This document shows, piece after piece, positions 2 through 15,781 of a DNA stretch of 64,000 nucleotides. Within the stretch, counting starts at the first letter, position 1; every line of letters begins with the position of its first letter. The position numbers were made by a program, and so were the translations under genes. The stretch is from the NCBI RefSeq assembly GCF_001742225.1, contig NZ_CP017076.1:1534501-1598500 (forward strand). Direction: 5' to 3'. The notes under the pieces are model-generated. The model saw nothing but the letters and a program-made list of their open reading frames with translations, was not told the origin of the DNA and made no database searches. Source of the DNA: Novosphingobium resinovorum. GTDB lineage: Bacteria > Pseudomonadota > Alphaproteobacteria > Sphingomonadales > Sphingomonadaceae.

Positions 2-1438
2 AACTACAACCTCATCGAGCTTGGTCCCAAGGGGACGGGAAAATCTCATATCTATTCCGAGTTCTCACCCCATGGTCAGCTGATCTCGGGCGGTGAAATC
101 ACGGTTCCCAAGCTTTTCGTGAACAATTCCAATGGCCGGATCGGATTGGTCGGCTTTTGGGATGTCGTGGCCTTTGACGAATTTGCCGGCCGCGAGAAGA
201 CGGCCAACAAGGCGCTTGTCGATATCATGAAGAACTACATGGCAAACAAGCAGTTCTCTCGTGGTGTAAATCCGATGGGCGCCGAGGCCAGCTTCGCCTT
301 CGTCGGCAACACGGACCATAACGTGCCTTGGATGCTGAAAAATACGGACCTGTTCGAAGCTCTGCCGCCGCAGTTCCACGACAGCGCCTTTATTGATCGA
401 TTGCATGCCTATCTGCCCGGATGGGAGGTCGACATTATCCGGGGTGAGATGTTCACATCTGGCTATGGGTTCATCGTCGACTATCTGGCCGAAATCCTGC
501 GCCATCTGCGTGCGGAGGATTTCTCACACCGGCCAGATCGCTATTTCACCATTCCGGTTCAGACCCATATCCGGGACCGTGCGGCGATCAACAAGACCAT
601 GTCAGGTCTGCTGAAGCTGATCTTCCCGAATGGAGGCGAGACTGAAGCCGAAGTTGAAGAACTGCTGCGCTTTGCGATTGAATGCCGAAAGCGGGTGAAG
701 GATCAGCTCCTGCGGATCGACAGCACCTTTGAGGCAGCAGATTTCCATTACATCGCATCGGATGGCGCAAAGCGCGCCGTCGCCACGCTGGAGGAAGAGG
801 AGTTCCCCCAGTTCTACCACCGTCGATCAACCGACGATGGAAGTGAAGGTGTGAATCAACGAGAGATTGGGTTGGTAACGGCAGAACCGGTCTCAACGGT
901 GGCTGCTTCCGCAGCACCTGCCGTTGCCGCTGCCCCGCACTCACCCCCAACTCCCGGACATGTCGTTTTCACAGAAAACCGCAAGGGCATCAGTTTCGAC
1001 AAGATCTTTGGTCCTTGGACGGATGGTGCGACGCGGATTATCATCACAGACCCCTATATCCGGAAGTTCCATCAGGCACGCAACGTGATGGAACTGATCG
1101 AGATGCTAATCCGGCGTAAACAGCCTGAAGATCAGATCGCTGTGCATCTTGTCACGGCTCCGGACGATGGGAACATCCAGGAGCAGCGAGAGTGCTTGGA
1201 CGGGATTGCTGAAGCCTGCACAGGCACGGGCGTCGATTTCACATGGGCCTTTGATGGGAGCGGCACTCTCCATGCACGCGACATCACGACGGATAACGGC
1301 TGGAAGATGGTTCTGGATCGCGGATTGGATATTTTCCAGCCAACGCCTCGCAAGATGAACGGTTTCTCGCTCGGAGAACGGATGCAGGAGCACCGGATGG
1401 TCCGTGGTTTCTACGTGACTTATGTCGAGAACCTTTAG
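2..1438 (+). CDS. brxL: BrxL-like AAA+ protein with C-terminal MIT_C/PLD-like domain (5' partial)
   Basis: The gene enters from outside the window, so its N terminus is missing. The visible part opens directly on a Walker A motif (ELGPKGTGKSH) and continues with the block VGFWDVVAFDEFAG (Walker B region), FVGNTDHNV, a sensor-like region and DRLHAYLPGWE. These are hallmarks of BrxL, the Lon-like AAA+ protein of BREX phage-defence systems. After a Pro/Ala-rich linker (about nt 870-960) the C terminus does not look like the usual Lon S16 protease domain. Instead it resembles the MIT_C phospholipase D-like domain (ITDPYIR, then HARDITTDNGWKMVLDRGLDIFQ near nt 1270-1340). It is the first of a co-directional run of defence-type genes; 124 nt separate it from the next start. 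The AAA call is firm, the MIT_C call is recognition by eye, and its role in defence is inferred from context. Confidence 0.85.
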   Translation, partial: NYNLIELGPKGTGKSHIYSEFSPHGQLISGGEITVPKLFVNNSNGRIGLVGFWDVVAFDEFAGREKTANKALVDIMKNYMANKQFSRGVNPMGAEASFAFVGNTDHNVPWMLKNTDLFEALPPQFHDSAFIDRLHAYLPGWEVDIIRGEMFTSGYGFIVDYLAEILRHLRAEDFSHRPDRYFTIPVQTHIRDRAAINKTMSGLLKLIFPNGGETEAEVEELLRFAIECRKRVKDQLLRIDSTFEAADFHYIASDGAKRAVATLEEEEFPQFYHRRSTDDGSEGVNQREIGLVTAEPVSTVAASAAPAVAAAPHSPPTPGHVVFTENRKGISFDKIFGPWTDGATRIIITDPYIRKFHQARNVMELIEMLIRRKQPEDQIAVHLVTAPDDGNIQEQRECLDGIAEACTGTGVDFTWAFDGSGTLHARDITTDNGWKMVLDRGLDIFQPTPRKMNGFSLGERMQEHRMVRGFYVTYVENL

Positions 1439-1562
1439 CTTCGTCGGTCGTGTTGGCGGGGCAGGTCCGGCTACGCGCTCGGCGGGAAGCGAGAAGTCGA
1501 CCTCGATGCCCAAGCCCTCATCCTCGTTACAGTTTTCCTGATCAGCAGATTGCAGGCCATTC

Positions 1563-4109
1563 ATGCACTACCCCTTCCTCGTCATTGATCCGCGCTCCGG
1601 CCTGCAATACCGCCTAACCGATACCGGTCTTGCCGAATTGTCCCTTGCCCCCATTTCTGCCGAATGGGCGCCGGGGCGTGCCATTGCCGAGGCGCCTGAC
1701 CCGGTCTGGGCCGAAAGTCTTGCCAATGCGCCTGTCGAGACGATCTCGGCGGTGACCGCCGCGCTGACGGATCTTGTGCTGGCCACGCCGGATCTGAAGG
1801 TGCCGAACGTCGATCACCTGCCAGACAGCCGCGCCAAGCGGCATCTCTTGGCGCTGGTCGCGTTGTGGCAAAGGTTGGGGGATGCGCTGCCAGAGGGGCT
1901 GGCACCGATTTCCCATGTGCTGGCCCTGCCGCATGGGGCGTTCCTGGGCTCGTTGCCGGTGGTTGAAGGTTCGCTGGATCCTCTAGCTCCTGCGGCGCTG
2001 CAGGCGCTTTTTGCCCGGTTGCGGGACGAGTTCGGCACTGTTCCCGCAAGCGCCTATACGCCCCGGGCCGCAATCGGCAGCCGTCTGCACGCGCTGCAGG
2101 GCGGTGTTTCAGCGCAGGATATCGAGGCCGGGGTTCTGGATGACAGCCTCGCGTTCTATGGTCTGCGCGATCCCGCCGCCTGCGCCGATTTCGCCGCCGC
2201 CCAAGCCCGGGCGCTGATTGAGTCCGGCGTTTCGGCCCGTGAAATCGCCGTGCTGTCGGGCGATGATCTGCGCCAGATCGCGCGCGCTTTCTCAGCCCAG
2301 GGAGTGCCGCTCTCGGGCCTTCCGGGCCAATTACCCGAGCGAGATGTCATTGGCGAGACCGCGCTACATCTGGCGCTGGCCAAGCGACCGCCAACTCCGG
2401 CTATGGTCTTGGCGAGCCTCGCGCTTTCTCCTTTGATGCCCTGGGCGGCACAGACCGGACGCGATCTTGCCGAAAGCCTCATGGGTGGCGATTTCCGAGG
2501 CGCCATCCTCACGGACACGCCCGCACATAAGGAACTGTGGGACGATATCCGCGCCTCGGCCGGCAGCTTGCCGCAGCTGCGATTCCTGCTGGACCGGATC
2601 TGCGAGCGGATCGGAAAAGGCGATCAGGTCCGCGCGCGGCTGACTGTCCCCCCCGGCGAAGGCACGCCGGATTGGGAGATAATCCTGCGTGGCATTCAGA
2701 TCGCGCCGCCCATGGTTGCGGACCCCGACCGCAATCTTGAAGGCGTCAGCCTCTGGTCCGCGCATGAAAGCCCGTGGCGCCCATGCCGCCATCTGATCGT
2801 CAGCGATTTCACCGACGGGCTTTACCCAACTCGCCCGCGTGCCAATCCGCTGTTTCTTGACAGCGAGATCGCTGCGATACACGCGGGAACCGGCGTTCAC
2901 CTTCGCGGTCGGGCCGAGGGGCTGGCGCAAAGCCTCGCGTTACTTGATCAACAGCTTCAGGCGGTTTCCGGCAGCGTCACCTTCCTCATCCCATGGCGCG
3001 ATCTGGCGGGCGGGCGCTTGCAACCTTCGGCCGGGTTGTCGCTGGTGGCGCGGGCGGTGGCGGGCGTTGAGGATGCCAGCGATCTGATCACCGATCTGTC
3101 GCGTCAGAGCCCTGCGGAATGGCCGATTGCGTATCACCATCTGATGCCGGTGTCGGAACCCGCGGAATTGCCTGAGGAGCTTACTTTCCCGGGGCATCAC
3201 CTTCTGTCCCTTCGTCGGCGCGATGACGGCACCGCCAAACCGCAATCGCCCTCACGGCTCGAGACGCTGCTTGTCAGCCCGCTCGCCTGGCTTCTGGCCG
3301 AGGTTGGGGCCGAGGATATGTCTTGGTCGACCGAAGAACTCGACGTGATGGCAAGGGGCAATATCGCCCATGATGTCTTTGAGCATGTCTTCCTGAAGGA
3401 TCAGCCGTTCCCGGAAACCGAGGCGCTGGCAGAACTGATCCCCGAGGCCTATGACCGCGCGCTCACCCGTCACGCGGGCTATCTGCGCAGCCCGTCATGG
3501 GAGATGGAGCGCCGCGGTTTGGAGCGTGAGATCATGGCGGCGGCCCTGCGCTGGCGCGACCACTTGCTGGCGCTCAATGCCAAGATCATCGGCAATGAAA
3601 TCTGGCTGGCCGGTGAGGCGCATGGCATCAATCTGCATGGCAAGGCCGACGCGATCCTTGAACTGCCTGATGGTGCGCTCTTGATCATCGATCACAAGAA
3701 AAGCGGCACCAAGGGCCGGCGGCAGCGGATGGAGGCGGGCTGGGATCTGCAGGCAGGGCTTTACGCCGATATGATAGCGCGGCCCATGCGGCGCGAGGGT
3801 GACGGCATGGACCCGCTGATCGGCCGCAAGGTGGCGGTCGCCTATCACCTGATGAATGATGGCGGGCTGCTGACTTCGGGTCTGGTCTTGCCCGAGGGCT
3901 CGCCCGCTCGCGACATGGGCGATGCGGTGAATGCCGGGGCGGTAGCCAAGCTGGCGGAACGCTTGGCCGAACTTGGTGCAGGCCGGGTCGTGCTGAACAC
4001 CTCTGAGGATGCGGCCTTCTTCAAGAAAGAAGCCGGCTTCACCCCCTATGCGCTGACCGATGGCTCGGCCCTGGTCACCGCCTTCATCCGCACGCTCGAG
4101 GAGGAATGA
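1563..4109 (+). CDS. AddB/RecB-like PD-(D/E)XK nuclease, 848 aa
   Basis: The protein is 848 aa with a RecB/AddB-type nuclease at its C terminus: a GKADAILELPDG strand, then LLIIDHKKSG (the D..DxK core), then QAGLYADM (QxxxY motif), around nt 3640-3775. I see no Walker A motif, so the N-terminal two thirds would be an inactivated helicase-like scaffold as in AddB; that part is inference. The ATG at 1563 follows a long gap after the BrxL-like gene, and the stop overlaps the next gene by 4 nt (ATGA), which implies translational coupling with the AddA-like helicase. An AddAB/RecBCD-like complex of two chains is the natural reading. Because it sits in a defence cassette it is probably a dedicated paralogue rather than the housekeeping repair enzyme. 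Confidence 0.75.
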   Translation: MHYPFLVIDPRSGLQYRLTDTGLAELSLAPISAEWAPGRAIAEAPDPVWAESLANAPVETISAVTAALTDLVLATPDLKVPNVDHLPDSRAKRHLLALVALWQRLGDALPEGLAPISHVLALPHGAFLGSLPVVEGSLDPLAPAALQALFARLRDEFGTVPASAYTPRAAIGSRLHALQGGVSAQDIEAGVLDDSLAFYGLRDPAACADFAAAQARALIESGVSAREIAVLSGDDLRQIARAFSAQGVPLSGLPGQLPERDVIGETALHLALAKRPPTPAMVLASLALSPLMPWAAQTGRDLAESLMGGDFRGAILTDTPAHKELWDDIRASAGSLPQLRFLLDRICERIGKGDQVRARLTVPPGEGTPDWEIILRGIQIAPPMVADPDRNLEGVSLWSAHESPWRPCRHLIVSDFTDGLYPTRPRANPLFLDSEIAAIHAGTGVHLRGRAEGLAQSLALLDQQLQAVSGSVTFLIPWRDLAGGRLQPSAGLSLVARAVAGVEDASDLITDLSRQSPAEWPIAYHHLMPVSEPAELPEELTFPGHHLLSLRRRDDGTAKPQSPSRLETLLVSPLAWLLAEVGAEDMSWSTEELDVMARGNIAHDVFEHVFLKDQPFPETEALAELIPEAYDRALTRHAGYLRSPSWEMERRGLEREIMAAALRWRDHLLALNAKIIGNEIWLAGEAHGINLHGKADAILELPDGALLIIDHKKSGTKGRRQRMEAGWDLQAGLYADMIARPMRREGDGMDPLIGRKVAVAYHLMNDGGLLTSGLVLPEGSPARDMGDAVNAGAVAKLAERLAELGAGRVVLNTSEDAAFFKKEAGFTPYALTDGSALVTAFIRTLEEE

Positions 4110-7100
4110 CCATGGCCCCCGTCAATGCAGATCAAGGTCTGGTCATCGTTCCCGCGGGTGCCGGCGCGGGCAAGACCCACCGCATCAAGACCCAGCTGTC
4201 CGATTGGGTGAAACGCGGCATTGTCCGGCCCGAACGTATCCTTGCCGTCACCTTTACCGAAGCCGCGGCTGGCGAGTTGCGCGAAAGGATCCGTGCCGGC
4301 CTTCTGGCCGATGGACTGGTCGCCGAGGCGATGGCGGTCGAGCGCGCCTATGTCTCGACCATACATGGACTGGGCCTGCGGCTTTTGACCGAACATGCTC
4401 TGGCGGCTGGCGCCTCGCCGCAGCCGCGTCATCTGGGCGATGCCGAGCGGGATCTGCTGATCCGTCAGGCACTGGCACATGCCAAGGCGCTGGACCCGAT
4501 CAAGGCCGCGCCCGAGCGGTTCGGTTACGCCCCGAACTTCGTGAAGGGCGAGACGGTCGAAGACAGTTTGCGCGCCCGGGTGCTATCGATGATCGACCTC
4601 TTGCGCGGCCTTGGGGACAAGGGGCGCGACGCTGGCCTGATCGCTCCGGCACTGACGCGGCTGGATGCGGTTTACGGGCCGGTTCTGGATGACCCTATCG
4701 CCGCGACCACCGCGTTGCAGACGGCCGTGCAGGTCATGATCGCAGCCTTTCCCGAGGGAGGCATGGCCGGGATCACCGCCAAAACCAATGTCGAGAAGCT
4801 GGAGAAAAACCTCGCGCTTTTCAAACGTGTTGATCGCGCGCCCGATCTTCTGGATTGGGATTGGCAGGTCTGGAACGATCTGCGCAGCCTGTTCATCTCT
4901 AACCGCTCCAGCAAGACGCCTGCGGGATATGACGACCTTGCCACGGCGATCATGGCGGCGGCGGATGTGCTGCCCTGCCATCCCGGCCCGCTGGCCGATG
5001 CTAAGCTGCACCTGTCCTGCCTGATCGCCTGCGCGCAAGAGGTGATGGCGGCCTATGAGACCCGCAAGAAGGCGCTCGGCCTGATCGACTTTGCTGACAT
5101 GATCACCGGGGCTGAGCACCTGCTCCGCACCGACCTCGCCGTGCGGCAAGCGGTGCTGGACGAGATCGACTGTGTCATCATCGACGAATTCCAGGACACC
5201 AACCCCGTGCAATTCGCGCTTTTATGGCAGTTGGGCCAGCACGCGCCGCGCACACTGCTGGTGGGCGATGTCAAACAGTCGATCATGGGGTTTCAGGGTG
5301 CCGATCCGCGCCTATCGACAGCGCTGGCGGCGGCAAATCCCGATGCGACCCAGCCTTTGGACCGCAACTGGCGCTCGACCCCAGCCATCATGCAATTCGT
5401 CAATGCGATGGGGGCTGGCCTCTTTGGGCAGGGCTATAACCCGCTGGCGCCGACCCGCGATGCGGTCGCAGCTCCCGCGATCGAGGTTCTGAACGCTACG
5501 CAGGGACGGCGCTCACAAAAGTATTCGCAGCCCCCAGAACACATCGCCGAGCGCATCGCCCGTATCCTGACTGATACTGAGACCATCACCGACCGCCACA
5601 CGAAGGCCGTCCGGCCGGCGCGGCCTTCGGATATCGCGCTCTTGGTCTGCCGCCACACCACCGCCGCCCGCTATGCCGAGGAATTGCGCGCGCGCGGCGT
5701 TCCGGTGCGGATCGCCGAGGATGGCTGGGCGAAAAGCCCGGTGATTGTTGCCGCCCGCGCCGCGCTGGCCTTTGCCGCCAATCCGGCGGATATCCATGCC
5801 GGGCTGCTCTTGCGCACGCTTGGCCCGGACCCGCTGCCCTTGCAGGAGGCGCTATCCGCCCAGATCGAAGGGCGGTTGGTGGATGACCCGGTGCTGATGC
5901 TGCTGGCCGCGCTCTCGGACATTCTGGCCCGCTCGCCAGTGGGGGCGGGGCTTGATCTGGTGCTGGATGCCGCCGACCTGCGTCTCTGGGCCGAACGTCA
6001 GCCCGATGCCGCCCAGTCCCGCGCCGATCTTCTGCGGCTAGAGGCTGAGGCGGGTGAGTTCGAAGCCGCGCATCGCGATCTCAAATCCGCCTCGGGGTTC
6101 CACGGCGAGACTGCCAAGGTCTTTCTCGGCTGGCTCGACGCCCGTGGGGGCGAGCGCGATTTCGACCGTCATCCCGATCCTTCCGCCAACAGCGCCGAGG
6201 CCGTGGAGATCGTCACCTGGCATGCCTCCAAAGGGCGGGAATGGCCGATCACTGTCGTCGCAGAGTTCGACTATGGTATCGAGGAACGTGCGGGGGCCAC
6301 TGCGACCCGTTTCGATGCCTTGGACCGCATCGACGATATGGCGGTGGTGCTGGGGTCCGCGAGCCTGATCCACACGCCCGGCTTTGCCGCGCCCGAGGCG
6401 ACCCGCCGTTTCATCGAAGACCGTCGCGCCGATTTTGAAGCCAATGCGAAAAACCTTCTCTATGTCGCTCTGACCCGTGCCCGTGACCGGCTGGTGCTGG
6501 AATGGCCGGGTTTTCTGAAGGACCGCGAAGAAGACGCGCCCGAGGCTACGAACCTGTTTCATATCCTGTCCGATACTTGCGCGCCGCAGATCGGGGCGGG
6601 CAGCCTGCGCATCAATGGCGTGGATTGCCCGGCGCTGATCACGCAACTGCCTGAAGAGGCGGGATTTACCGAGTACGCAGGCGGTGCGGCAGCGTCAGCG
6701 CTGCGATTCGGTGCCGCTGCGCCGTTGCCCGTGACACCGCTAACGCCCTGGCGGCTGCAGCCCTCGCAAACCCGTAGTGCGGGGGTACCGCCCGTGTCCC
6801 GCCGTATCAACATCGGAGCACCCTGGCCAAAGGCACTGAACGATGCCTACCGCGGCACAGCACTGCATCTGGCGCTGCGCACATACCTGACCCGGCCCGA
6901 TCTGGCCCCGGCTTTGGCTCTCGCGACCGGGCTTGACGACGCCACTCTTGCGCTAGTGGCCGAGCGCGCCACGGCGCTGAAAGCCTGGCTTGCCGATCAG
7001 GGCTATACGGATCTGCGCGCTGAGATTCCGGTGCTTGGCCACACGCCCGAGGGTGCAGAGATCCCCGGTGCCCTCGACCTTCTCGCCATCGGCCCGGCAG

Positions 7101-7312
7101 GCGCGATGCTGATCGACCATAAATCCGGCGGCGGCGGTGACGGGTTTGGCCCCTATTGGCCACAGCTTTCCAGCTATGCCGGACTGTTGGCCGGACTATA
7201 CCCGCAGCATCCGCTGCAGGGCGTGGCGGTGTTCTGGGTCGATCACGGTTGGCTGGAACTGGCAGATGAGGGCGCGTCAGCGGGAGCTTGCGCACAGGCC
7301 AGAGTTAACTGA
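4106..7312 (+). CDS. AddA-like UvrD/RecB helicase-nuclease, 1068 aa
   Basis: All superfamily 1 helicase motifs are visible in order: Walker A PAGAGAGKTHR (about residue 17), Walker B VIIDEFQDTNPVQ (about 355), motif III LLVGDVKQSIMGFQGADPRL, motif IV DRNWRS, motif V VTWHASKGREWP (about 700), and motif VI LYVALTRARDRL (about 790). A RecB-type nuclease follows at the C terminus (GALDLLAIG, MLIDHKSGG, QLSSYAGLL). It therefore looks like a complete AddA-type helicase-nuclease and pairs with the AddB-like protein whose stop it overlaps. The start may be 4106 or the ATG two codons later (4112). The stop overlaps the next start (TGATG at 7310-7314). The likely role is processive unwinding and degradation of DNA ends; the connection to BrxL is inferred from gene order. 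Confidence 0.85.
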   Translation: MTMAPVNADQGLVIVPAGAGAGKTHRIKTQLSDWVKRGIVRPERILAVTFTEAAAGELRERIRAGLLADGLVAEAMAVERAYVSTIHGLGLRLLTEHALAAGASPQPRHLGDAERDLLIRQALAHAKALDPIKAAPERFGYAPNFVKGETVEDSLRARVLSMIDLLRGLGDKGRDAGLIAPALTRLDAVYGPVLDDPIAATTALQTAVQVMIAAFPEGGMAGITAKTNVEKLEKNLALFKRVDRAPDLLDWDWQVWNDLRSLFISNRSSKTPAGYDDLATAIMAAADVLPCHPGPLADAKLHLSCLIACAQEVMAAYETRKKALGLIDFADMITGAEHLLRTDLAVRQAVLDEIDCVIIDEFQDTNPVQFALLWQLGQHAPRTLLVGDVKQSIMGFQGADPRLSTALAAANPDATQPLDRNWRSTPAIMQFVNAMGAGLFGQGYNPLAPTRDAVAAPAIEVLNATQGRRSQKYSQPPEHIAERIARILTDTETITDRHTKAVRPARPSDIALLVCRHTTAARYAEELRARGVPVRIAEDGWAKSPVIVAARAALAFAANPADIHAGLLLRTLGPDPLPLQEALSAQIEGRLVDDPVLMLLAALSDILARSPVGAGLDLVLDAADLRLWAERQPDAAQSRADLLRLEAEAGEFEAAHRDLKSASGFHGETAKVFLGWLDARGGERDFDRHPDPSANSAEAVEIVTWHASKGREWPITVVAEFDYGIEERAGATATRFDALDRIDDMAVVLGSASLIHTPGFAAPEATRRFIEDRRADFEANAKNLLYVALTRARDRLVLEWPGFLKDREEDAPEATNLFHILSDTCAPQIGAGSLRINGVDCPALITQLPEEAGFTEYAGGAAASALRFGAAAPLPVTPLTPWRLQPSQTRSAGVPPVSRRINIGAPWPKALNDAYRGTALHLALRTYLTRPDLAPALALATGLDDATLALVAERATALKAWLADQGYTDLRAEIPVLGHTPEGAEIPGALDLLAIGPAGAMLIDHKSGGGGDGFGPYWPQLSSYAGLLAGLYPQHPLQGVAVFWVDHGWLELADEGASAGACAQARVN

Positions 7313-8526
7313 TGCCCTGGGGAATACTTGCGCCCGATACCGTGGTTTCGCAACGACGCCAGCAGAACCTTGGGCTTGCGGCGGCGGTTCGTCATTTCAA
7401 TGACCGGGCGGTCCCCGGAATCGGCGGCATGTGGTTTCCCATGCCCATCCTTTGGTCGGTTCTGGCGATCTCTATCGCCGAGGAACTTGGTGTGCCGGCA
7501 CTGCCTGTCGGCAACGCGGTCGAAGCGCGCGTCATGCTTGAAGTCATCGCGGGCCCGCAGGATCGCCGCGTGCGAGGGGCGAGGAAGATGCAGGGCTTGA
7601 AGGATAGCAGTTTCCACAATCTCAGGCGTCGCGGAACTTATGTGGTTCAGCCGATCCGCATGGCGATGGTGCAGCCTCTGGTCGCACTCGGGTTCGTGCA
7701 GGGCAGCCGCTACGGCGCGTTCCGCATACATAGCGCTGGCAGAGAGCTGTTGGAGCTGAATGCGATGAAAGAACCGCGCCGTTTGCTTGGTGCCTGGGCG
7801 CATGGCAGACAGCCACATGGCCTGAAGGAGGCCCTAGCAGTGCTTTCCCCGGTTGGGGCTGTCCCGGAAGCGGTGCGTAAACTGATCCTTGCCCGATTGC
7901 TCGACGGAAATGATCCCGGCTCGACCCGGCGCCGGGAGCTGGCGCGCCTCGGCACGGGCCCCAGTTCCACGCATTTGGACCAGGAAACCGCATTGGCGGG
8001 GGTTGCGCCGGATCACTGGTCGGATCTGCGCGCCGGAGCGGCTTTTATGGATATTCGCGATGCCGCGTTGACGGTGTTGGACCAGTTGGAACAGCACCTG
8101 CTGAAGCTTCGCGACGATAATCAGCCTGTGCGCCTGTCAGAAGCGGAGGCAGCCGAAGTCGCCGCCGAGCCGCTGAAACAATTGCGAGATCTGGCCTCGG
8201 CAAAAGGCGCGCTTGTCGATCAGGGCAATGAGGAGACTAGCCGCAGATTTATTGCGGAAATCCGACATCTGTCCGATCAACAGCTGATCCAGAGGCTGGC
8301 CGAGCGCGATTCTACCGTGATTTGTCAGCGCGAAGGCCACATTTTTCTCGGGCCGGCTGCGAGCGAGTTGCGGGGCAGCTCGGAGACCCAGGACGAGAAC
8401 CGGCCCCCTCAGGACGAGGCCTTCGCGCCGCAGCTTTTCCGGCTGCACAATCTTCATTGTCTGGTGACAGAGCTGTCCGGAAAGGTGAACCCGGGCAGCC
8501 GTGACGCGGGATCGGAGGCCGTCTGA
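7312..8526 (+). CDS. Uncharacterised protein of the defence cassette, 404 aa
   Basis: I do not recognise a named family. The start overlaps the stop of the helicase gene, and its own stop overlaps the start of the next gene, so it belongs to one translationally coupled operon. The N-terminal half holds a segment resembling a winged helix (about residues 95-145: basic helix, then VQPIRMAMVQPLVALGFVQG, then a RYGAFRIHSAGRELLEL wing). The C-terminal half is rich in charged helices (about residues 240-330) and could be a coiled or helical bundle region. No signal peptide or membrane segment is visible. The position between nuclease-helicases and a phospholipase D-like gene suggests an adaptor or DNA-recognition role, but that is inference only. 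Confidence 0.7.
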   Translation: MPWGILAPDTVVSQRRQQNLGLAAAVRHFNDRAVPGIGGMWFPMPILWSVLAISIAEELGVPALPVGNAVEARVMLEVIAGPQDRRVRGARKMQGLKDSSFHNLRRRGTYVVQPIRMAMVQPLVALGFVQGSRYGAFRIHSAGRELLELNAMKEPRRLLGAWAHGRQPHGLKEALAVLSPVGAVPEAVRKLILARLLDGNDPGSTRRRELARLGTGPSSTHLDQETALAGVAPDHWSDLRAGAAFMDIRDAALTVLDQLEQHLLKLRDDNQPVRLSEAEAAEVAAEPLKQLRDLASAKGALVDQGNEETSRRFIAEIRHLSDQQLIQRLAERDSTVICQREGHIFLGPAASELRGSSETQDENRPPQDEAFAPQLFRLHNLHCLVTELSGKVNPGSRDAGSEAV

Positions 8527-8892
8527 TGCAGAACACGACGCTCTACTCCCTCTTCATGCCGCCCGAAGATTGTTATGGCGACTTTGGTCTTATGTGCGGC
8601 TTCACCGCGACGCGGCAGGTCCTGGGGCAGATCCGCCGAACATTCACAGGCGAGATGGCGCGCCCGGTGCTGGCCGCCTTCATCCATCCAACCATGAATG
8701 CGATCTCGGACGTTCCGGGACTTGCCTGGATGTGGATGCGCCTCGAGGGACGCGGCTACAACCTTCTCCATGCCAAGGTGGCGTTTCTGGGTTTTCGCAA
8801 GCGCGGCGGAGATGGCTATGTCATTCGCCTCGCTGTCAGCACGGGGAACTGGACACAGGATCCGCTTACTCGCAGCATCGACCTGTTCTGGT
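8526..8892 (+). pseudogene. Phospholipase D-like protein, 5' part, interrupted by IS21-type element
   Basis: The start overlaps the preceding stop (TGATG). The first 122 codons contain a first phospholipase D-like half-motif, HAKVAFLGF followed by STGN (residues about 82-108). At nt 8893 the reading frame runs into the left end of an IS21-family element. In the interrupted state it would read 26 further codons into the IS before a stop at 8972. Joining nt 8892 to nt 11400 (removing the IS and one copy of the 6-bp duplication) restores one open frame to 12835, a 600-aa protein with two HxK motifs. The gene is therefore recently interrupted rather than decayed. Confidence 0.85.
8887..8892. repeat. 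Left target-site duplication of IS21-type insertion
   Basis: TCTGGT directly precedes the IS terminal sequence TGTCAACGG. The same six bases follow the right end at 11394-11399. Six bp lies within the usual 4-8 bp range for the IS21 family. Confidence 0.9.
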
Positions 8893-8951
8893 TGTCAACG
8901 GCGGAGCAAAAGTCGGCCATTCGGCGGCGTAAAACCAGGCCACGGTGTTAC

Positions 8952-9004
8952 ATGCCGGGGGGAGTGGCGTGAGGGCGTAGCCCGAAGGCCACTCCCCCCG
9001 GCAT
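8952..9004. terminator. Strong hairpin downstream of istB, inside the IS
   Basis: A perfect 17-bp inverted repeat (8952-8968 with 8988-9004) encloses a 19-nt loop that itself has a GGGC/GCCC stem. It lies 11 bp beyond the istB stop on the transcribed strand. The position suggests a transcription terminator or insulator for the IS. No long T-run follows, so Rho-independent termination is not certain. Confidence 0.6.
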
Positions 9005-9015
9005 TGGCTTGATTT

Positions 9016-9783
9016 TCAGGGTCTGGTTTTGGCCTTTCGGGCCCGGCTGTGAGCGAGGCGATAGCTTTCGCCGTTCATCTCGAGGATGCTGACGTGATGG
9101 GTCAGACGATCGAGGAGCGCGCCTGTGAGGCGCTCGGATCCGAAGGTTTCAGTCCATTCGTCGAAGGGCAGGTTGCTGGTGATCAAGGTGGAGCCGCGCT
9201 CATAGCGCTGGGAGATCAGCTCGAACAACAGTTCGGCACCGGTCTTGGAGAGCGGTACGAAGCCCAGTTCGTCAATGATGAGCAGCTTGTATCCGGCCAT
9301 CTGCTTCTGGAAGCGCAGGAGACGCCGCTCGTCGCGCGCCTCCATCATCTCGCTGACCAGCGCCGCCGCAGTGGTGAAGCCCACCGACAGTCCTTTCTGG
9401 CATGCTGCCAGCCCGAGCCCCAAAGCTACGTGCGTCTTGCCGGTGCCCGATGGCCCCAGAGCGATGGCGTTCTCACGCCGCTCGATCCACTCGCAGCGCG
9501 CCATCTCGAGCACCTGCATCTTGTTGAGCCTGGGGATAGCGGCGAAGTCGAAGCTGTCGAGGCTTTTGACGGCGGGGAAGCGCGCGGCCTTGATGCGCCG
9601 CTCGACCATACGACGCTCCCTGTCGATCATCTCCATCTCGACGAGACGGGCGAGGAAGCGGATATGATCGACGCCTTCAGCGGCACATTGCCGGGCGAGC
9701 TTGTGATGCTCTCGCAGGCACGTAGGCAGCTTGAGTGCCTTGAGATGGTGAGCGAGAAGAATCTCCGGTGCCTGATCGCTCAT
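9016..9783 (-). CDS. istB: IS21-family helper ATPase IstB
   Basis: The 255-aa AAA+ helper protein of IS21 transposition has Walker A ALGPSGTGKTHVALGLG (about residue 105), Walker B LLIIDELGFVPLS and the conserved ITSNLPFDEW segment. I chose the ATG at 9783 because it overlaps the istA stop (ATGA at 9780-9783), the standard IS21 arrangement. An open frame continues upstream to 9909, but that stretch lies inside istA. Length and motifs are normal for the family. It would assemble on target DNA and activate the IstA transposase. Confidence 0.93.
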   Translation of the reverse strand: MSDQAPEILLAHHLKALKLPTCLREHHKLARQCAAEGVDHIRFLARLVEMEMIDRERRMVERRIKAARFPAVKSLDSFDFAAIPRLNKMQVLEMARCEWIERRENAIALGPSGTGKTHVALGLGLAACQKGLSVGFTTAAALVSEMMEARDERRLLRFQKQMAGYKLLIIDELGFVPLSKTGAELLFELISQRYERGSTLITSNLPFDEWTETFGSERLTGALLDRLTHHVSILEMNGESYRLAHSRARKAKTRP

Positions 9784-11288
9784 GCGGCCTCCTGCCTGTC
9801 GGACAGCAGGCTCATATAGGCTCTGGCAAAGGTCTTCTCGACCGTCGTGCGTGGCAGGAAGGGATAGACGTCCAGGTCCAGCCTGGGCGGCACGCGTTCG
9901 ACCCGGCACAGGACCAGGTGCCTGACGGCATCGAAGCCGATGGCGCCAAGGTCGATGGCCTGTTCCACCGCCGCCTGGAGATCGGCGATGGTGAACGTTT
10001 CCAGCAGGCGCAGCACCTGTACATATTCGCGCCTGCCATGTTTGTGCATGCGCCCTTCCATCAACCGCTGGAGCGTCCCGAACGCTTCGGGCAGGTCCCA
10101 GCCCTGCAAAGGGGCCGCCTGGTCGAATGCGTTGATCTTCTGCTCAATCAGCGGGAGATAATGGAGCGGGTCGAAGATAACCTCCTCGCGGGCATGGCAA
10201 CGCGGGTGACGGGCGATGACCTCGCTGCGGCATCCGATCACCACCGCATCGACATAGGCCCTGATCCAGACTTCCTGATGGCCCCAGGCCACCGGAACCG
10301 AATAATCGTTGGTCCTGTAGCGCACCAGGGATTGCGAGGAGACCCGCCCCCCGGTCTGATCGCAGGCCTCGAAGGGTGTAGCGGGCAGAGGCTGCATCGC
10401 CGCCAAATCGCGCTGCAAGCGCTCACCGATCGTCTCGCTCTCCCCGCGCACCTTGTCCTGCTGGCGCCTGCGGCATTGCTCCTCCAGCCACAGGTTGAAC
10501 GCCTCCCAGGTCGGGAACTTCGGGATCGGCACCATGAAATTGCGGCGGCAGTAACCAACCAGCCCTTCCACATTGCCTTTCTCGTTCCCCTTGCCCGGGC
10601 GGGCATAGCGGTCGCGGATCACGTAATGCGACAGGAAAGCGCTGAACAGCGTGGCACGCTTGCGCGTGCCGTCTGGCAGGATCTTCGCCACCAGGCAGCG
10701 ATCGTTGTCATAGACGATCGAGCGCGGCACCGCGCCGAAGAACGCGAAGGCATGGACATGTCCGTCCACCCAGGCCTCCGCCACCGCCGCCGGATAGGCT
10801 CGCACATAGCAGGCATCACTGTGCGGCAGATCGAGCGCGAAGAAGTAAGCCTTTTGCTCCACCCCGCCGATCTCCACCAGCGCTTCCCCGAAATCGGCCT
10901 GCGCATCTCCCGCCGGGTGCGCCAGCGGCACGAACATCTCCCGGCTGCGTTGCTCGCGCTCCCGGATGTAATCCTTGATGATCGTATAGCCGCCGGTAAA
11001 ACCATGTTCGGTGCGCAAACGGTCGAATACCCGCTTCGCCGTATGGCGCTGCTTGCGCGGGACACCGCGATCCCCCTCAAGCCATCCATCGATGATCCCC
11101 ACAAACCCGTCCAGCTTCGGGCGCTGCGGTGCAGACTGACGCCGGTAACCCGGCGGCGATGAAAACGACAGCATCTTGCGCACCGTATCGCGCGACACAT
11201 TGAAACGCTTCGCCGCCGCCCGTTGGCTCATGCCATCCGCGCAAGCCAAACGGACCTGAAGATAAAGTTCCACGCTGTAGATCCCCAC
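9780..11288 (-). CDS. istA: IS21-family transposase IstA
   Basis: The 502-aa transposase has an N-terminal HTH (QRAAAKRFNVSRDTVRKML, residues about 22-40) followed by an rve-type DDE integrase core. Acidic positions lie in DAQADFGEA (about 125), VYDNDRCL and the region around KGNEKGNVEG. The start is a GTG at 11288, about 105 bp inside the right IS end; no better ATG lies upstream within the element. It is coupled to istB by an ATGA overlap. Full length and apparently intact. Confidence 0.92.
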   Translation of the reverse strand: MGIYSVELYLQVRLACADGMSQRAAAKRFNVSRDTVRKMLSFSSPPGYRRQSAPQRPKLDGFVGIIDGWLEGDRGVPRKQRHTAKRVFDRLRTEHGFTGGYTIIKDYIREREQRSREMFVPLAHPAGDAQADFGEALVEIGGVEQKAYFFALDLPHSDACYVRAYPAAVAEAWVDGHVHAFAFFGAVPRSIVYDNDRCLVAKILPDGTRKRATLFSAFLSHYVIRDRYARPGKGNEKGNVEGLVGYCRRNFMVPIPKFPTWEAFNLWLEEQCRRRQQDKVRGESETIGERLQRDLAAMQPLPATPFEACDQTGGRVSSQSLVRYRTNDYSVPVAWGHQEVWIRAYVDAVVIGCRSEVIARHPRCHAREEVIFDPLHYLPLIEQKINAFDQAAPLQGWDLPEAFGTLQRLMEGRMHKHGRREYVQVLRLLETFTIADLQAAVEQAIDLGAIGFDAVRHLVLCRVERVPPRLDLDVYPFLPRTTVEKTFARAYMSLLSDRQEAA

Positions 11289-11393
11289 ACCTCCCTGACT
11301 TGGCAGAAAGGCTTCAAGGTGGACGACTTTTACGCCGCCCGCAGCAGGACTATCCCGCCGCTAGCGTGGCCGAATATTGCTCCGCCGTTCTCA

Positions 11394-11399
11394 TCTGGT
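11394..11399. repeat. Right target-site duplication of IS21-type insertion
   Basis: Second copy of TCTGGT, immediately after the right IS end at 11393. Together with the copy at 8887-8892 it fixes the insertion boundaries. Confidence 0.9.
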
Positions 11400-12835
11400 C
11401 GATCGATCTGGACTCTGCTGTGCCTGACGCACAGGACATTGCCGATATCCGCGCTGCGCATGAGATGTTTGGATGGCTGCGCGAGCGGGCAGATTGCGCC
11501 CTGATCGAACGCAGTTTTGACGGGCACCGGCCAGACGCCCTGCTGGAGGCCGCGATCACAGCCTTGCCCACGTCATCCGCGCGTCCCCGCTTCATCGACA
11601 GCCGCAATCAGGCGCTGTTTCCTCAGGTGGTCGAGCGCCTGGGTACCAAAAAGAAGGCCGACCGTCTCATCCTCGGGTCTGGCTATTTCGAGAGCGACGG
11701 CGATGGTGCTGCTGGCCTGCCAGAGCGACTGCGCCGCGCATTGGTGCAGGAGAAATCCCTGACGAAAACAGCGGCTCTCGACCTGTTTCTCAACCCGTCC
11801 TCCTGTCAGGGGCTTGCTGCCCGGGCCGGTGCCTTGATTGACGCAGGCTGGAACTTGCGCCCTCCGCGCTCTGTCTTGCATGGAACTGATGGGTGCCTGC
11901 ATGCAAAATTTGTGGTGCTGGCGTCGGGCGAGACCGAGGCCTCGGGACGGGCTTATCTTGGATCCGGCAATCTGAGCATGAACGGGTTTGAGCGTGCCGC
12001 AAGCGCCGGGGGAAACCTTGAGGCAGGTGTGATCGTCGATCTGCCGGGAGGACTGAAATGGCCGCGACGCAGAGACACGCGGAACGGTATCGCCGCTGTT
12101 TTTCCGATCCAGTTCACTGATGTGGTGACGCCCGAGGCCCTGCAGCAAGGGGAAGGCTTTGTGCGCCCCGATGAGCCAGAAACCCAGCCGCCAGTTGCGT
12201 GGTTTATATGGCAAGACGGGGTGCTCTCGGCCCCCGAAGACAAATCGGTGATGGTGATTGGTGTCGATGCGGCTCAGGCCCAGACACCTTGTCCATGGCC
12301 TGCACCGGCTCCAGCGATTGTGACCCTCGCGGAGGGCGGCTGGCGGCTGCCTGTCATTTCTTCCGGCGCACTTGTTGTCGCTCGCCCCTCCGATATGTCG
12401 GTCGAAGATATCCTTGCCAGCCTTGGATCATTTCCCGAGCCTGGTGATGCTGACAGCGAAGATGAGGGTGAGGAAGGCGAAGAGCCGCTCACCGACGCCT
12501 CAGATACCACCGAAGCTCCGCCAGCTGCCTATCCCATTCGCAGGATGATGGAACTTCTGGTGCGTCTTTGTGAGACACAGGCAAGGTTAGACCCGCGGGA
12601 CTGGCAAAGGTGGTGTCGGGAGTTGCAACAGAAACTTTGCGCTATCGCGTCTCGCGAAAAAACGATGCTCGAGTTCTTCCGGAACGCCAGGGCAAATCCT
12701 CTGCCTGCTCTGGCAGATCCGCGTATGCGCCCGGAAGGGGTTTCGCCAGACCTATTGAGAGATGCGCTTTTGGCAGTGTCCGTCGCGTGGGAGCTCAGCG
12801 CTTACCCATCGCTCTGGGAACGGGAGGCCGCGTGA
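11400..12835 (+). pseudogene. Phospholipase D-like protein, 3' part beyond the IS
   Basis: This is the continuation of the gene begun at 8526. The frame is open from inside the IS (from 11300) to the stop at 12835, but the protein resumes at 11400. A second phospholipase D-like half-motif lies near nt 11895-11985 (LHAKFVVLASG followed by LGSGNLSMNGF). With the first half-motif before the IS, the protein had the usual two-HxK active site of this nuclease/phospholipase superfamily. The C-terminal third has a very acidic segment (about nt 12435-12520). The stop overlaps the start of the helicase gene (TGATG), which argues that the two proteins work together. The fragment lacks a native start and the intact enzyme cannot be made while the IS is present. 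Confidence 0.85.
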
Positions 12836-15375
12836 TGGTGGACTGGAACGAAGTCGCGAGCATTCTGGATCGTATCGCAGGGACGTCTGATGATACCGTG
12901 CTAGATCATGGCCAGAAGGCGAGTGTCACAGAACTAGCGTGCCGTATCCGGGCGGGCCAACGCTCGGCCCTGTTGGCTGATGAGGTGGGTATGGGCAAGA
13001 CCCGCATTGCGGCGGCGCTGATCGCAGCGGTGCGGGAGGCGGGCGGGCGCAGCGCCATTGTTCTGCCCGCGGGCCTTGGGGCACAATGGCAACAGGAACT
13101 GAAACGGTTCAACACCGACGACAAGACATTGCTGCCGCTGCGCAGCTATGATGGTTTCATCTCCGGTTTTTTGCACGATACCGATGCGGAGGGGAGCGCA
13201 AGACGGTTACACAGCCATAAGGAGTGGCTTTCGGATCGCCGCAAGCAGCGTGAGTTGCCGGAGAACGGCTGGGCCGCCGAAGAGATCATAATGATATCTC
13301 ATTCCTTCGCGAACATGCAGTTTCCCAATCGTGGAGAAGGCCCCGCTGGAGGCTGGCGCCGGGAACTCTTACCCAACGTCGCCCGCCTGATTGACGGCCG
13401 ACGGCGCAACTTCATGCGCGAAAATTTCCATTCGGGTGAGGTGGGCTATGTATATGCCAGTCGCCGTGCGGCGCGGCACATTGCCCAAACGATTCTGGAC
13501 CACGAACTGCCGCGCGATGCCATTAACGGCGATCAGAAATGGCTTTCGGCGGACGATTACAAGAACAGGATCCTGCCGCTGATCGGCTATGGCCTGGGTC
13601 AGTTTGATCTCATAGTCGTTGACGAAGCCCACAAGGCGCGCGGCGCAGATTCAAGCCTTTCGCGCATTCTCGGCCCGGTAAGCTGGGAAGCGGATGATCC
13701 TTTTCGTCTGGGCATGACCGCAACCCCGGTCGAGCTGGACTCCAGCCAGTGGATCGACACGCTGGAGCGACTCAATGGTCGCGATGATGATCAGGATATT
13801 ACTGCGCTCGCAGAGCTGACGGAATGGATCACCGGCTATGTGGATGTTGTTCGTCGGATTCAAACCGAAGAACTGGACGAGACGCTGACCGGGGAATTCG
13901 AGACCTCCGCCCGGCAGTTCTACGCAGCATTGCGACCACACGTCCTGCGCCGGGACAAACGAAGTGACCCCGAATTCTGCGTCTTCAAAGACAGTCATGG
14001 TGATTATCGTGAGGTCACCGATATCCCGGTTTCACCGGAGGCAGAGGGTTTTACCCGTGACTGGTTGCGCCGCTTTTGTGCGGCTGAGGCGCTGTCGTTA
14101 CTCCCTCAGGATGATCCGCGTGTGAAACGGGTCAGGCTCGCCGTTGCCCAGGGGTATGGGTTCGGCTTTGGAGAGGATGAGGAAGACAGCCATTCTGGCA
14201 TGACAGATGCAAACCTCGTTGGTCCGGCGGGGTTTTGGACGGAAGCTTTTACCGCTGAGAGCAACGACATCTATAGCCACCCTGCGATCCTGGCGGCAGT
14301 GAGACAAATCGAGGCCTATACACGGGCCGGCGAGAAAGTGCTCGTCTTCGGCAGGTTCCTGACGCCGATGAATGTGCTGACCAGACTGCTGGACGCGCGT
14401 GAGATGCTGCGTCGTTTGCGAGACGGACAGCACTGGCCTGCCAGTGGGATCGGGGAAAGCAATATAGCAGCCGTCATTGCGGCGATGAGAGATCCTGATC
14501 TTGCGGTGGCGGGTGGGGTCGACGAAATCGATGTGATGTTGAAAACCCGCTATCAGGAGTGGGCGAGCGAGCGACGGGCTGAACTCGCACGGCTTCATCG
14601 GGAGTTGGAAGACCTTGCGCTGGAGGGAGGAGCTGCTGCATTTCTGTCAGAGATTCTGCGCCATGAGGACGGCAAACAAGACCTTCAATTCGGGGCTTTG
14701 CTCGAGGCACTTGGTGGCAGGCGGGAAGTTGCGGGCGCTTCCTGGACGGGGCGGGAAATGCTCGGGCTGTTCGAAAAACTGCTCCTGGAGCTTGCCGGCG
14801 ATGATGAAGCAGAGAACAACGATACGCAGAAAGCCCGGCTGGATGCCTGGCTGAACGATTATTCCGGGCGCGAGGGCAACTTCGCCAGGATGATGTCAGG
14901 TGCAACCGCACCGCAAACGCGGCGTATGCTGCAATCTGCATTCAACCGGTCGTCCAGTTGGCCGATGGTGCTCCTCGCGCAATCCCGCGTCGGGCGTGAG
15001 GGCCTGAATCTGCATGAGGCCTGTCGCACAGTGATTCTACTGCACGCGGAGTGGAATCCCGGCATTGTCGAGCAGCAGATTGGGCGTGTGGATCGCAAGA
15101 ACAGTCTTTGGCTTCGCGAATGGCGGAAATGGAGGGATCATGGTGATGGTCTCCCGCCCCGCATTCGGGTTCACCCTGTTGTCGTCAGTGGCACATACGA
15201 CGATCACAACTGGCAGGTTCTCAAGGCGCGTTGGCTGGAACTGAGGGCGCAGTTGCATGGCGATGTCCTGCGTCCCGTTCCAGGTCGGTCAGAGGTGATA
15301 GATGACAAACGAACCTGCGCTGACCGCGTTCGGCGCGCAGTGCCGGATTTTTCGCCGGGAAGACGTGGCGGTTGA
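12835..15375 (+). CDS. SNF2/DEAH-type helicase of the defence cassette, 846 aa
   Basis: Superfamily 2 helicase/translocase: motif I LLADEVGMGKTRIAAAL (about residues 42-58), motif II LIVVDEAHKARG, motif III GMTATP, and C-terminal motifs V-VI in SRVGREGLNLHEA and QQIGRVDRKNS. The last motif is typical of SNF2/HepA-like members. The ATG at 12835 overlaps the stop of the phospholipase D-like gene by one base, so I prefer it over the open frame reaching back to 12610. The protein would translocate on DNA and could load or regulate the two-HxK nuclease. Because the IS separates it from the upstream promoter, its expression in this strain may be reduced. Confidence 0.88.
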   Translation: MVDWNEVASILDRIAGTSDDTVLDHGQKASVTELACRIRAGQRSALLADEVGMGKTRIAAALIAAVREAGGRSAIVLPAGLGAQWQQELKRFNTDDKTLLPLRSYDGFISGFLHDTDAEGSARRLHSHKEWLSDRRKQRELPENGWAAEEIIMISHSFANMQFPNRGEGPAGGWRRELLPNVARLIDGRRRNFMRENFHSGEVGYVYASRRAARHIAQTILDHELPRDAINGDQKWLSADDYKNRILPLIGYGLGQFDLIVVDEAHKARGADSSLSRILGPVSWEADDPFRLGMTATPVELDSSQWIDTLERLNGRDDDQDITALAELTEWITGYVDVVRRIQTEELDETLTGEFETSARQFYAALRPHVLRRDKRSDPEFCVFKDSHGDYREVTDIPVSPEAEGFTRDWLRRFCAAEALSLLPQDDPRVKRVRLAVAQGYGFGFGEDEEDSHSGMTDANLVGPAGFWTEAFTAESNDIYSHPAILAAVRQIEAYTRAGEKVLVFGRFLTPMNVLTRLLDAREMLRRLRDGQHWPASGIGESNIAAVIAAMRDPDLAVAGGVDEIDVMLKTRYQEWASERRAELARLHRELEDLALEGGAAAFLSEILRHEDGKQDLQFGALLEALGGRREVAGASWTGREMLGLFEKLLLELAGDDEAENNDTQKARLDAWLNDYSGREGNFARMMSGATAPQTRRMLQSAFNRSSSWPMVLLAQSRVGREGLNLHEACRTVILLHAEWNPGIVEQQIGRVDRKNSLWLREWRKWRDHGDGLPPRIRVHPVVVSGTYDDHNWQVLKARWLELRAQLHGDVLRPVPGRSEVIDDKRTCADRVRRAVPDFSPGRRGG

Positions 15376-15440: not shown

Positions 15441-15640
15441 GCAACCATTCTCCCCGAGTTGGATTTGGCGTTGATAGGAAAATGGATGTTAGTAGGTCGC
15501 AAGTAATGGTGGTTGCAGCCTCCCGCAACCATCTTTACCGGCGTCGATTGCAAGTTGTGATCGATGCCGGTCCCCGCAACCATCTTTACTTGCTCGGGCA
15601 ACAAGTGAAGATTAGATCCAGCCCCCGCAACCAATAATTA
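15441..15640. repeat. 51-bp direct repeats resembling the 3' end of initiator tRNA
   Basis: The core CCCGCAACCATCTTTAC occurs at 15522 and 15573, and CCCGCAACCA again at 15624, so the spacing is exactly 51 bp twice. A weaker GCAACCA lies at 15441. The third copy reads ATCCAGCCCCCGCAACCA, which matches the T-stem/acceptor/CCA end of a bacterial initiator tRNA (typically ATCCNGCCCCCGCAACCA, from memory). The array sits between the end of the defence cassette and a tyrosine integrase. It may represent stacked attachment sites. No complete tRNA precedes it in the window. The first copy can also fold as GGTTGC/GCAACC. Confidence 0.65.
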
Positions 15641-15781
15641 CAATCAAAACAACAGTTTAGGATCACCGCTGAAATCGGCGACAGGCTCGATGTGCCTAGC
15701 ACAACGCTAGCACATTTGCGCAGCTTTGCGATTTGTGAGACATTCCCACCCAGGCTCCCCTTGCAGCAGTGGCGGTTTGTC

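Follow-up and report, generated by a model that had tools for sequence, protein, structure and literature searches.

DISARM joins the DrmA helicase and DrmB to a PLD protein, DrmC, and an SNF2 protein, DrmD. In the accessible portions of the respective sources, Azaca is a named system whose mechanism is listed as unknown (PMC12926258) and whose helicase is called ZacC (PMC12278908), and a BrxL with an HKD/PLD-type C-terminus is reported for 1030 of 2913 BrxL-bearing type-1 BREX taxa (PMC12839542). Here we analyse a 64,000-nucleotide stretch of Novosphingobium resinovorum DNA (hereafter the window; C2:1534501-1598500 of a five-contig genome of 6.9 Mb), which carries a five-gene unit composed of an AddB-like protein, an AddA-like protein, a protein that we call Unk404, a PLD protein with two HxK motifs and an SNF2 helicase, all encoded on the plus strand with overlapping junctions. 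Our comparisons lead us to favour, with somewhat more trust than doubt, the reading that a defence-specialised AddAB-type helicase-nuclease pair is coupled here to an exchangeable cutting module beside BREX type 1. The features concerned are as follows.

2..1438, plus strand: BrxL, C-terminal 478 of 695 aa, with an AAA+ ATPase domain and MIT_C (PLD-like; HAR at the expected HxK site); BREX type 1 neighbour, outside the five-gene unit.
1563..4109, plus strand: AddB-like PD-(D/E)XK nuclease, 848 aa, with a PDDEXK_1 domain (domain match, conserved residues).
4106..7312, plus strand: AddA-like UvrD-type helicase, 1068 aa, with a C-terminal DHK nuclease-like motif (domain match, motifs).
7312..8526, plus strand: Unk404, 404 aa (open reading frame, relatives).
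8526..8892, plus strand: PLD-like protein, N-terminal part with the first HxK; gene cut by IS21 (sequence motif, blastn).
8893..11393: IS21-family element, 2501 bp, with istB at 9016-9909 and istA at 9780-11288, both on the minus strand (domain matches, comparison with relatives).
11394..12835, plus strand: PLD-like protein, C-terminal part with the second HxK (sequence motif, blastn).
12832..15375, plus strand: SNF2-type helicase, about 847 aa, starting at GTG 12832 or ATG 12835 (profile matches).

Judged by profile scores, motifs and distribution, the AddB-AddA pair is conserved, has spread horizontally and is paralogous to the housekeeping enzyme. AddA contains UvrD helicase domains, and the AddA and RecB models match it far under their cut-offs (NCBIfam addA_alphas, 148.3 bits against 860.75); the window AddB likewise reaches 21.7-23.1 bits on addB_alphas, the cut-off of which is 486.5. 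A separate housekeeping AddB of 992 aa, encoded at C1:513849-516764, scores 740.8 bits against the same cut-off with its neighbour included in the frame, and since the genome thus keeps its own AddB, the window pair is a paralogue. That the pair could itself be the genome's repair AddAB was ruled out, because it falls under the addA and addB cut-offs while C1:513849-516764 passes that for addB. Residues H603, D696, D710, K712, Q730 and Y734, which we take to be those of a RecB-family nuclease, are conserved in at least 95% of 45 AddB sequences, and GAGAGKT, DEFQDT and the C-terminal DHK, presumably helicase and RecB-nuclease motifs, in at least 95% of 46 AddA sequences. A search of Protein Data Bank sequences with AddB gave no match.

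The same genome holds a second AddB-AddA copy on another contig (C1), 82% identical at the protein level, which is followed by ZacA, ZacB and ZacC. Beside this second copy, a gene at L005 10649-12217 encodes a dual-specificity-phosphatase-like N-terminal part and an ADP-ribosylglycohydrolase C-terminal part, and in many relatives recurs with a WYL regulator on one side and AddB on the other. L005 13351-15366 encodes a protein of 671 aa that has two AAA+ regions and a weak likeness to IetA; it recurs next to WYL and AddAB, also in distant relatives, and is possibly one of the pair's core partners.

A scan of the collection of named genomes with 17 aligned AddB sequences yielded 46 loci, among which near-identical mobile copies are not independent; their cargo was classed with hidden Markov models and tblastn built here, plus Pfam for chosen open reading frames. 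AddA directly follows AddB in all of them save L046, which lacks AddA (45/46). The contig ends too soon for the downstream side to be read in six (L015, L018, L036, L043, L044, L053), leaving 40 readable loci. In these the pair is most often followed by a triad of a protein X, a PLD protein and an SNF2 helicase, of either the Unk404 or the Azaca kind: Unk404-PLD-SNF2 in 22, with Unk404 identities to that of the window from 100% down to 28%, and ZacA-ZacB-ZacC in six (L017, L026, L031, L039, L047, L050). The AddAB-Unk404-PLD-SNF2 order, part of what an earlier note, made from this DNA alone, had put forward as a possible defence cassette, thus does recur. The remaining readable loci have PDDEXK_4 nucleases (2/40: L021, L030), GmrSD (1/40: L048), an McrB-like gene (1/40: L049; the label is our own reading of AAA_5 together with a DUF4357 match, the latter just under its cut-off) or other or no recognised cargo (8/40: L011, L032, L034, L035, L038, L041, L046, L052). 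In L049 a remnant of Unk404 stands between AddA and the McrB-like gene (11140-11259, the 40 N-terminal residues, 72% identical), possibly the scar of a cargo replacement. On the upstream side, PglZ-BrxL directly precedes AddB in nine loci (L008, L009, L010, L013, L014, L033, L044, L045, L051), and in many of the rest an AAA+ ATPase and a WYL regulator occupy this side, often joined by an ADP-ribosylglycohydrolase.

AddAB pairs of this kind are uncommon. Of 298 genomes in the family sample, six match the pair with an E value of 1e-50 or lower, namely that of the window and five distant ones; in the class sample (385 genomes) no AddB beyond the two of the window genome is matched strongly, three further matches being weak (E 1.7e-6 to 3.9e-4). 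Ten plasmid records carry the pair, six of them typed conjugative, and eight of the ten were inspected; a 3.8-Mb contig (L005) and a 1.6-Mb contig (L047) also bear copies. On a Haematobacter massiliensis plasmid BREX, AddAB and the triad stand in one series, with the annotated genes at full length. The mobile defence setting that the earlier note had suspected thus holds, the unit lying among defence genes. TIR-domain genes occur near the pair on an Agrobacterium plasmid (L097 9775-10485) and a Komagataeibacter plasmid (L101 17859-20441), and on a Fuscovulum blasticum plasmid a HEPN-domain gene (L095 11170-11958) lies between ADP-ribosylglycohydrolase and AddB.

Comparison of close relatives indicates that the unit is separable and its cargo exchangeable. 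In L012, which has no BREX in its stretch, the DNA match to the window (about 95%) runs from 1467, 29 bases past the BrxL stop, to 15381, six bases past the helicase, so that the five genes move by themselves. L026 and L025 differ in downstream cargo (Azaca and the Unk404 triad, respectively) with AddA proteins that are 96% identical; AddA is 94% identical between L019 and L020, the Unk404 proteins of which share just 29%. In L099 a joined Unk404/PLD frame and SNF2 precede AddB-AddA, the genes remaining linked though their order has changed; the joined frame was spotted by eye in this single case and could be an indel. A tree of 59 AddA rows was built by a quick search that gave long-branch warnings; 3/59 rows have no cargo label, G236 is not included, and L099 was scored with the triad rows in spite of the upstream position of its triad. 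On this tree the three cargo classes require a minimum of 21 changes, where shuffling gives 24.6 on average (a value this low arising in 10 of 200 shuffles); Unk404 alone requires 13, where shuffling gives 19.0 (this low in 5 of 500). Because these counts lie below the shuffled means, there is some clustering of cargo, to which near-copies contribute. As read from this tree and these comparisons, the triad has been exchanged repeatedly. Azaca and BREX also neighbour AddAB pairs of other lineages.

These other lineages deserve description. In L075 and L076 the order is AddB-AddA-ZacA-ZacB-ZacC with an AddB only 36-37% identical to that of the window; L078 has the Unk404 triad with an AddB at 36%, and L091 reads WYL-AddB-AddA-ZacABC. 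Another AddAB lineage precedes ZacABC in L080 and L081, the AddB frames of which bear PDDEXK_1, the L080 AddA scoring 285 bits (cut-off 860.75). The PADLOC model for ZacC was matched in all seven genomes tested (G000, G175, G271, G839, G952, G499, G593), the C1 copy being among these matches. In G175 the unit stands divergently beside a DUF499/DUF1156/helicase system, a kind described as BREX-related in the accessible part of PMC12839542. In G839, AddB-AddA of the same lineage lies divergently beside a full BREX-1 whose BrxL has MIT_C, and a further ResIII/SNF2-type helicase and a convergent ZacABC are present; a second, partial ZacC match (G839:C6:288124-288735; 291.9 bits, last fifth of the model) was noted about 44 kb from the full ZacABC. 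G236 has the order BrxC, PglX (labelled by our own model, 126 bits), PglZ matching type B and not type A, BrxL (Lon type), AddB, AddA and a PLD-like protein with one HxK (PLDc_2, 27.7 bits against a cut-off of 27). Among ten Azaca loci whose context was examined, AddAB-type genes lie nearby in six (G000, G025, G175, G271, G952, G839), only an AddA-like end being present on the G025 contig; this count draws on 12 distinct ZacA matches, of which G257 (22 bits) and G288 (contig beginning 522 bases before ZacA) were left out; G499 and G593 (L075, L076), found through AddB, do not enter the count either.

On the upstream side, the first 650 bases of BrxL precede the window; the gene is the final one of a complete BREX type 1 locus, which runs WYL regulator, BrxA, BrxB, BrxC, PglX, PglZ type A, BrxL (L003 7627-19348 and into the window). 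The type assignment relies on PADLOC matches for BrxA, BrxB, BrxC, PglX, PglZ and BrxL and on NCBIfam matches for BrxC, PglZ type A and BrxL; the window BrxL matches BrxL_ATPase at E 1.4e-98 and MIT_C at E 4e-39. None of the five unit genes matched a BREX core model, and the SNF2 helicase gives a weak helicase match to BrxH (59.5 bits). The MIT_C of the window BrxL, with HAR in place of HxK, agrees with the BrxL-HKD variant as published in the accessible text of PMC12839542. BrxL was also considered as a member of the new unit and ruled out, given the complete BREX upstream and the unit without BREX in L012. The upstream search for pglZ and brxC that the earlier note had proposed therefore did find its locus, and the membership of BrxL in the cassette, which the note had assumed, has to be dropped. 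A promoter and terminator scan around the gap between BrxL and AddB found none. Within pglX (L003 13321-16848), PglX residues of about 400-900 are 31-75% identical to the L008 homologue with flanks at 95-100%, and about the same segment of DNA (window -5270 to -4187) is unmatched in each of nine BREX-lineage relatives, which looks as though the specificity part of PglX had been exchanged.

How might such a unit work? In our favoured scheme the triad would recognise and open foreign DNA, with SNF2 as the motor, the PLD protein as a nuclease and X (Unk404 or ZacA) as a specificity factor or adaptor; the AddAB heterodimer would then load on the DNA ends and destroy the DNA via its two nuclease domains. 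In BREX loci AddAB could act on DNA opened by BREX. According to the part of PMC12839542 available, PglZ is implicated as a nuclease in type-1 BREX, and a precedent for a partner of this sort is found in the accessible text of PMC13192584, in which the synergy between Druantia III and Zorya II depends on RecBCD and is abolished by the RecBCD inhibitor Gam. A broader notion, which we hold only tentatively and with more doubt than belief, is that defence-dedicated AddAB enzymes make up one class of effector, shared among systems, and that no fewer than three of their lineages, deeply separated from one another, were recruited to BREX-family or Azaca-type systems. If so, some BREX systems would leave the destruction of DNA to a dedicated AddAB (plus PLD) whose genes are their neighbours.

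Several observations weigh against the coupling of the pair to a cutting module. The pair occurs with no recognised defence cargo downstream, for example in L032, L041, L097 and L100, and AddAB loci lacking the triad imply that the triad is not obligatory; conversely, our own models detect no AddAB in 4 of the 10 examined Azaca loci (G060, G065, G535, G809; loci L083, L084, L089, L090), so that AddAB is not obligatory for Azaca. Only one of nine further BrxL loci in an even class sample, in which one contig ends 2 kb past BrxL, has AddAB beside it. Frames are split in several relatives (AddA in L010; Unk404 in L016; AddB in L050, L052, L053 and L101), which indicates that some copies are decaying. 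On the AddA tree two changes account for the BREX neighbourhood, rows whose upstream DNA could not be read being left out; on this reconstruction the window lineage acquired its BREX link once and recently, and transfer then carried it into several families of Alphaproteobacteria. The two kinds of triad also resemble each other little in their first two proteins: Unk404 has no profile similarity to ZacA (hhalign probability 0.1) and no DUF6361 (PDLC03828) match in PADLOC or Pfam, and the PLD protein resembles ZacB weakly (hhalign probability 21 over 214 columns). Finally, plain islands also show cargo turnover.

This last point leads to the most serious rival, namely that AddAB, the triads and BREX are independent hitch-hikers sharing an integration spot in defence islands, the pair being a constant hotspot flank with which nothing works jointly. 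In favour of such a hotspot are the number of cargo changes, which on the AddA tree falls only slightly short of the average over shuffles, the range of cargo (GmrSD, McrB-like, PDDEXK_4, HipA or nothing recognised) and the presence of the unit without BREX in L012. However, an X-PLD-SNF2 module follows the pair in 28 of the 40 readable loci and does so in two kinds, the first genes of which are not detectably related; the AddA-to-triad junctions overlap; L099 keeps the genes together in a permuted order; and pairings with Azaca and BREX are repeated in other AddAB lineages. We therefore regard independent hitch-hiking as unlikely, though it deserves to be taken seriously. It is also conceivable that the pair serves the cell as a guard or a spare: an additional AddAB that phage inhibitors aimed at the host enzyme do not affect, or one that sets off the partner module when it is itself inhibited. 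The separate housekeeping AddB would fit this, and Gabija, OLD and a retron respond to RecBCD inhibition (PMC12904381, accessible text).

Against a guard or spare speaks the conservation of the helicase motifs and of the two nuclease sites, features that a pure decoy could do without, and we know of no phage inhibitor of this pair; we consider this explanation improbable. More improbable still, in our estimation, is that the pair works in recombination or repair for its carrier, be it a plasmid or an integrative element, and not in defence, as might be thought from its occurrence on ten plasmids, six of them typed conjugative, and from VirB10/TrbI, a type IV secretion gene located upstream in the genome of the window. 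Such maintenance sits poorly with the defence-type neighbours on one or both sides in most readable loci, with the copies on the 3.8 Mb and 1.6 Mb contigs, and with the result of a scan of viral contigs needing exact short peptide patterns, which found no relative. We thus retain the coupling of a defence-specialised pair to an exchangeable module as the favoured reading.

The window copy itself has been damaged. Compared by blastn with the intact relative L008, it contains an insert at 8893-11393 flanked by a 6-bp target duplication (TCTGGT at 8887-8892 and 11394-11399); the ends of the insert form the inverted repeats TGTCAACGGCGGAGCAA and TGAGAACGGCGGAGCAA, and its minus-strand frames, within 9016-11288, match IstB and IstA profiles. 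This IS21 element is absent from all 11 close relatives, each of which matches the window on both flanks of the insert, and it splits the PLD gene, whose intact product in relatives has 600 aa, between its two HxK motifs. The genes are accordingly not consecutive and the two motifs fall in separate frames, so that the description of six consecutive plus-strand genes given in the earlier note stands for strand and overlapping junctions and fails where the IS21 element was overlooked, as does its two-HxK PLD protein, both motifs of which are present. With its PLD gene interrupted, the triad is probably inactive in the window, whereas the reading frames of AddAB and BREX stay open.

One further feature lies downstream.

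15692..17101, plus strand: tyrosine-recombinase-like open reading frame, recognised by eye only; not in the unit.

It had been called an integrase directly following the cassette, and the likeness to a recombinase remains as an impression by eye; no family match supports it, as Pfam gave none and the best Protein Data Bank match (E 0.6) is not credible. As a conserved integrase of the cassette it was rejected, since nothing above 60 bits was found in the stretches of the 46 relatives. At 15492-15593 a 51-nt sequence stands twice in tandem, the copies being 73% alike; some relatives share DNA around them (3' blast ends between 15357 and 15634), and the repeats, lying in this common DNA, are not evident att sites as had been proposed.

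Regarding the individual proteins, profile searches confirm the earlier identifications of BrxL-MIT_C, the AddB-like PDDEXK_1 protein, the AddA-like UvrD/RecB-type protein, the unknown 404-aa protein and the SNF2-type helicase. Unk404 has at least 101 relatives, counted in a search limited to 8000 scored candidates, no match in Pfam, NCBIfam or PADLOC at E 0.01 and nothing credible among Protein Data Bank sequences (best E 0.12). The PLD protein has no Pfam match, even for an intact relative, and nothing credible among Protein Data Bank sequences (best E 0.15); its assignment follows from the HxK motifs seen in the sequence, two of which 22 PLD proteins have in common (at least 95% conserved), and seven ZacB sequences show the same pattern. 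We found no paper on a defence-linked or mobile, defence-only AddAB in the literature searched (most subscription papers and supplements lay outside it), none describing Azaca together with AddAB, and none combining any two of DUF6361, ZacA, Azaca and AddAB. Among the papers listed for both AddAB and BREX, the passages available mention AddAB only as the host repair enzyme or in a reference title, and the main text of PMC12839542 (supplements outside the search) does not mention AddA, UvrD, RecB, exonuclease or Azaca. What we describe thus appears to be known enzyme classes in a combination that we found undescribed, plus an Unk404 family matching nothing in the three profile collections. RecBCD and AddAB are known host partners of defence. 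If the pair is an end-processing partner of BREX or Azaca, both the destruction of BREX-restricted DNA and the requirements of Azaca become testable, and the unit, a naturally separable module seen with and without BREX, is suited to genetic tests.

Taken together, the gene order matches no named system that we found, as had been supposed. BREX type 1 with BrxL-HKD/MIT_C is directly upstream as a complete locus in the window lineage and separately neighbours AddAB in G839 and G236, but AddAB, Unk404, PLD and SNF2 lie outside its core genes. The housekeeping AddAB (TIGR02784/TIGR02786) shares the two-subunit design, with a nuclease-type motif per subunit and a UvrD-type helicase in AddA, but the unit's AddB has 848 aa against 992 aa in the same genome, and its pair is horizontally spread and defence-linked. 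DISARM, which the earlier note had named the nearest partial analogy for the PLD and SNF2 genes, likewise has PLD and SNF2 proteins together, and DrmD is among the best helicase matches; the unit's SNF2 helicase, however, scores DrmD at only 75.8 bits against a cut-off of 610, DrmB and DrmC have no match among the unit proteins and DrmA a weak one of 39.3 bits (among the 25 best-scoring families, out of 30 for the helicase and out of 52 for AddA). Identity with DISARM was therefore rejected on the low DrmD score and the lack of a DrmB or DrmC match among those listed. Azaca comes nearer. It has the same three-gene plan directly after AddAB: a protein of about 390 aa, a PLD-like protein (HPK...RNLT, HAK...GSGN) and an SNF2-type helicase. 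The C-terminal part of the window PLD protein gives a weak PADLOC match to ZacB (E 2.4e-4 over 45 residues), with the same two HxK motifs in the same order. As a named system, though, Azaca comprises three genes only, and the C1 copy matches ZacA (PDLC03828/DUF6361), unlike the window Unk404. The window SNF2 helicase scores ZacC at 53 bits, below PDC-M27C, DrmD and BrxH; in profile comparison its similarity to ZacC is confined to the helicase C-domain, and the matches listed at E 1e-10 in a ZacC family search of the genome comprise the C1 gene but not the window gene. The five-gene unit was accordingly rejected as a member of Azaca, Unk404 being unlike ZacA and the SNF2 protein falling outside the ZacC family search, and Azaca stands as its closest described counterpart.

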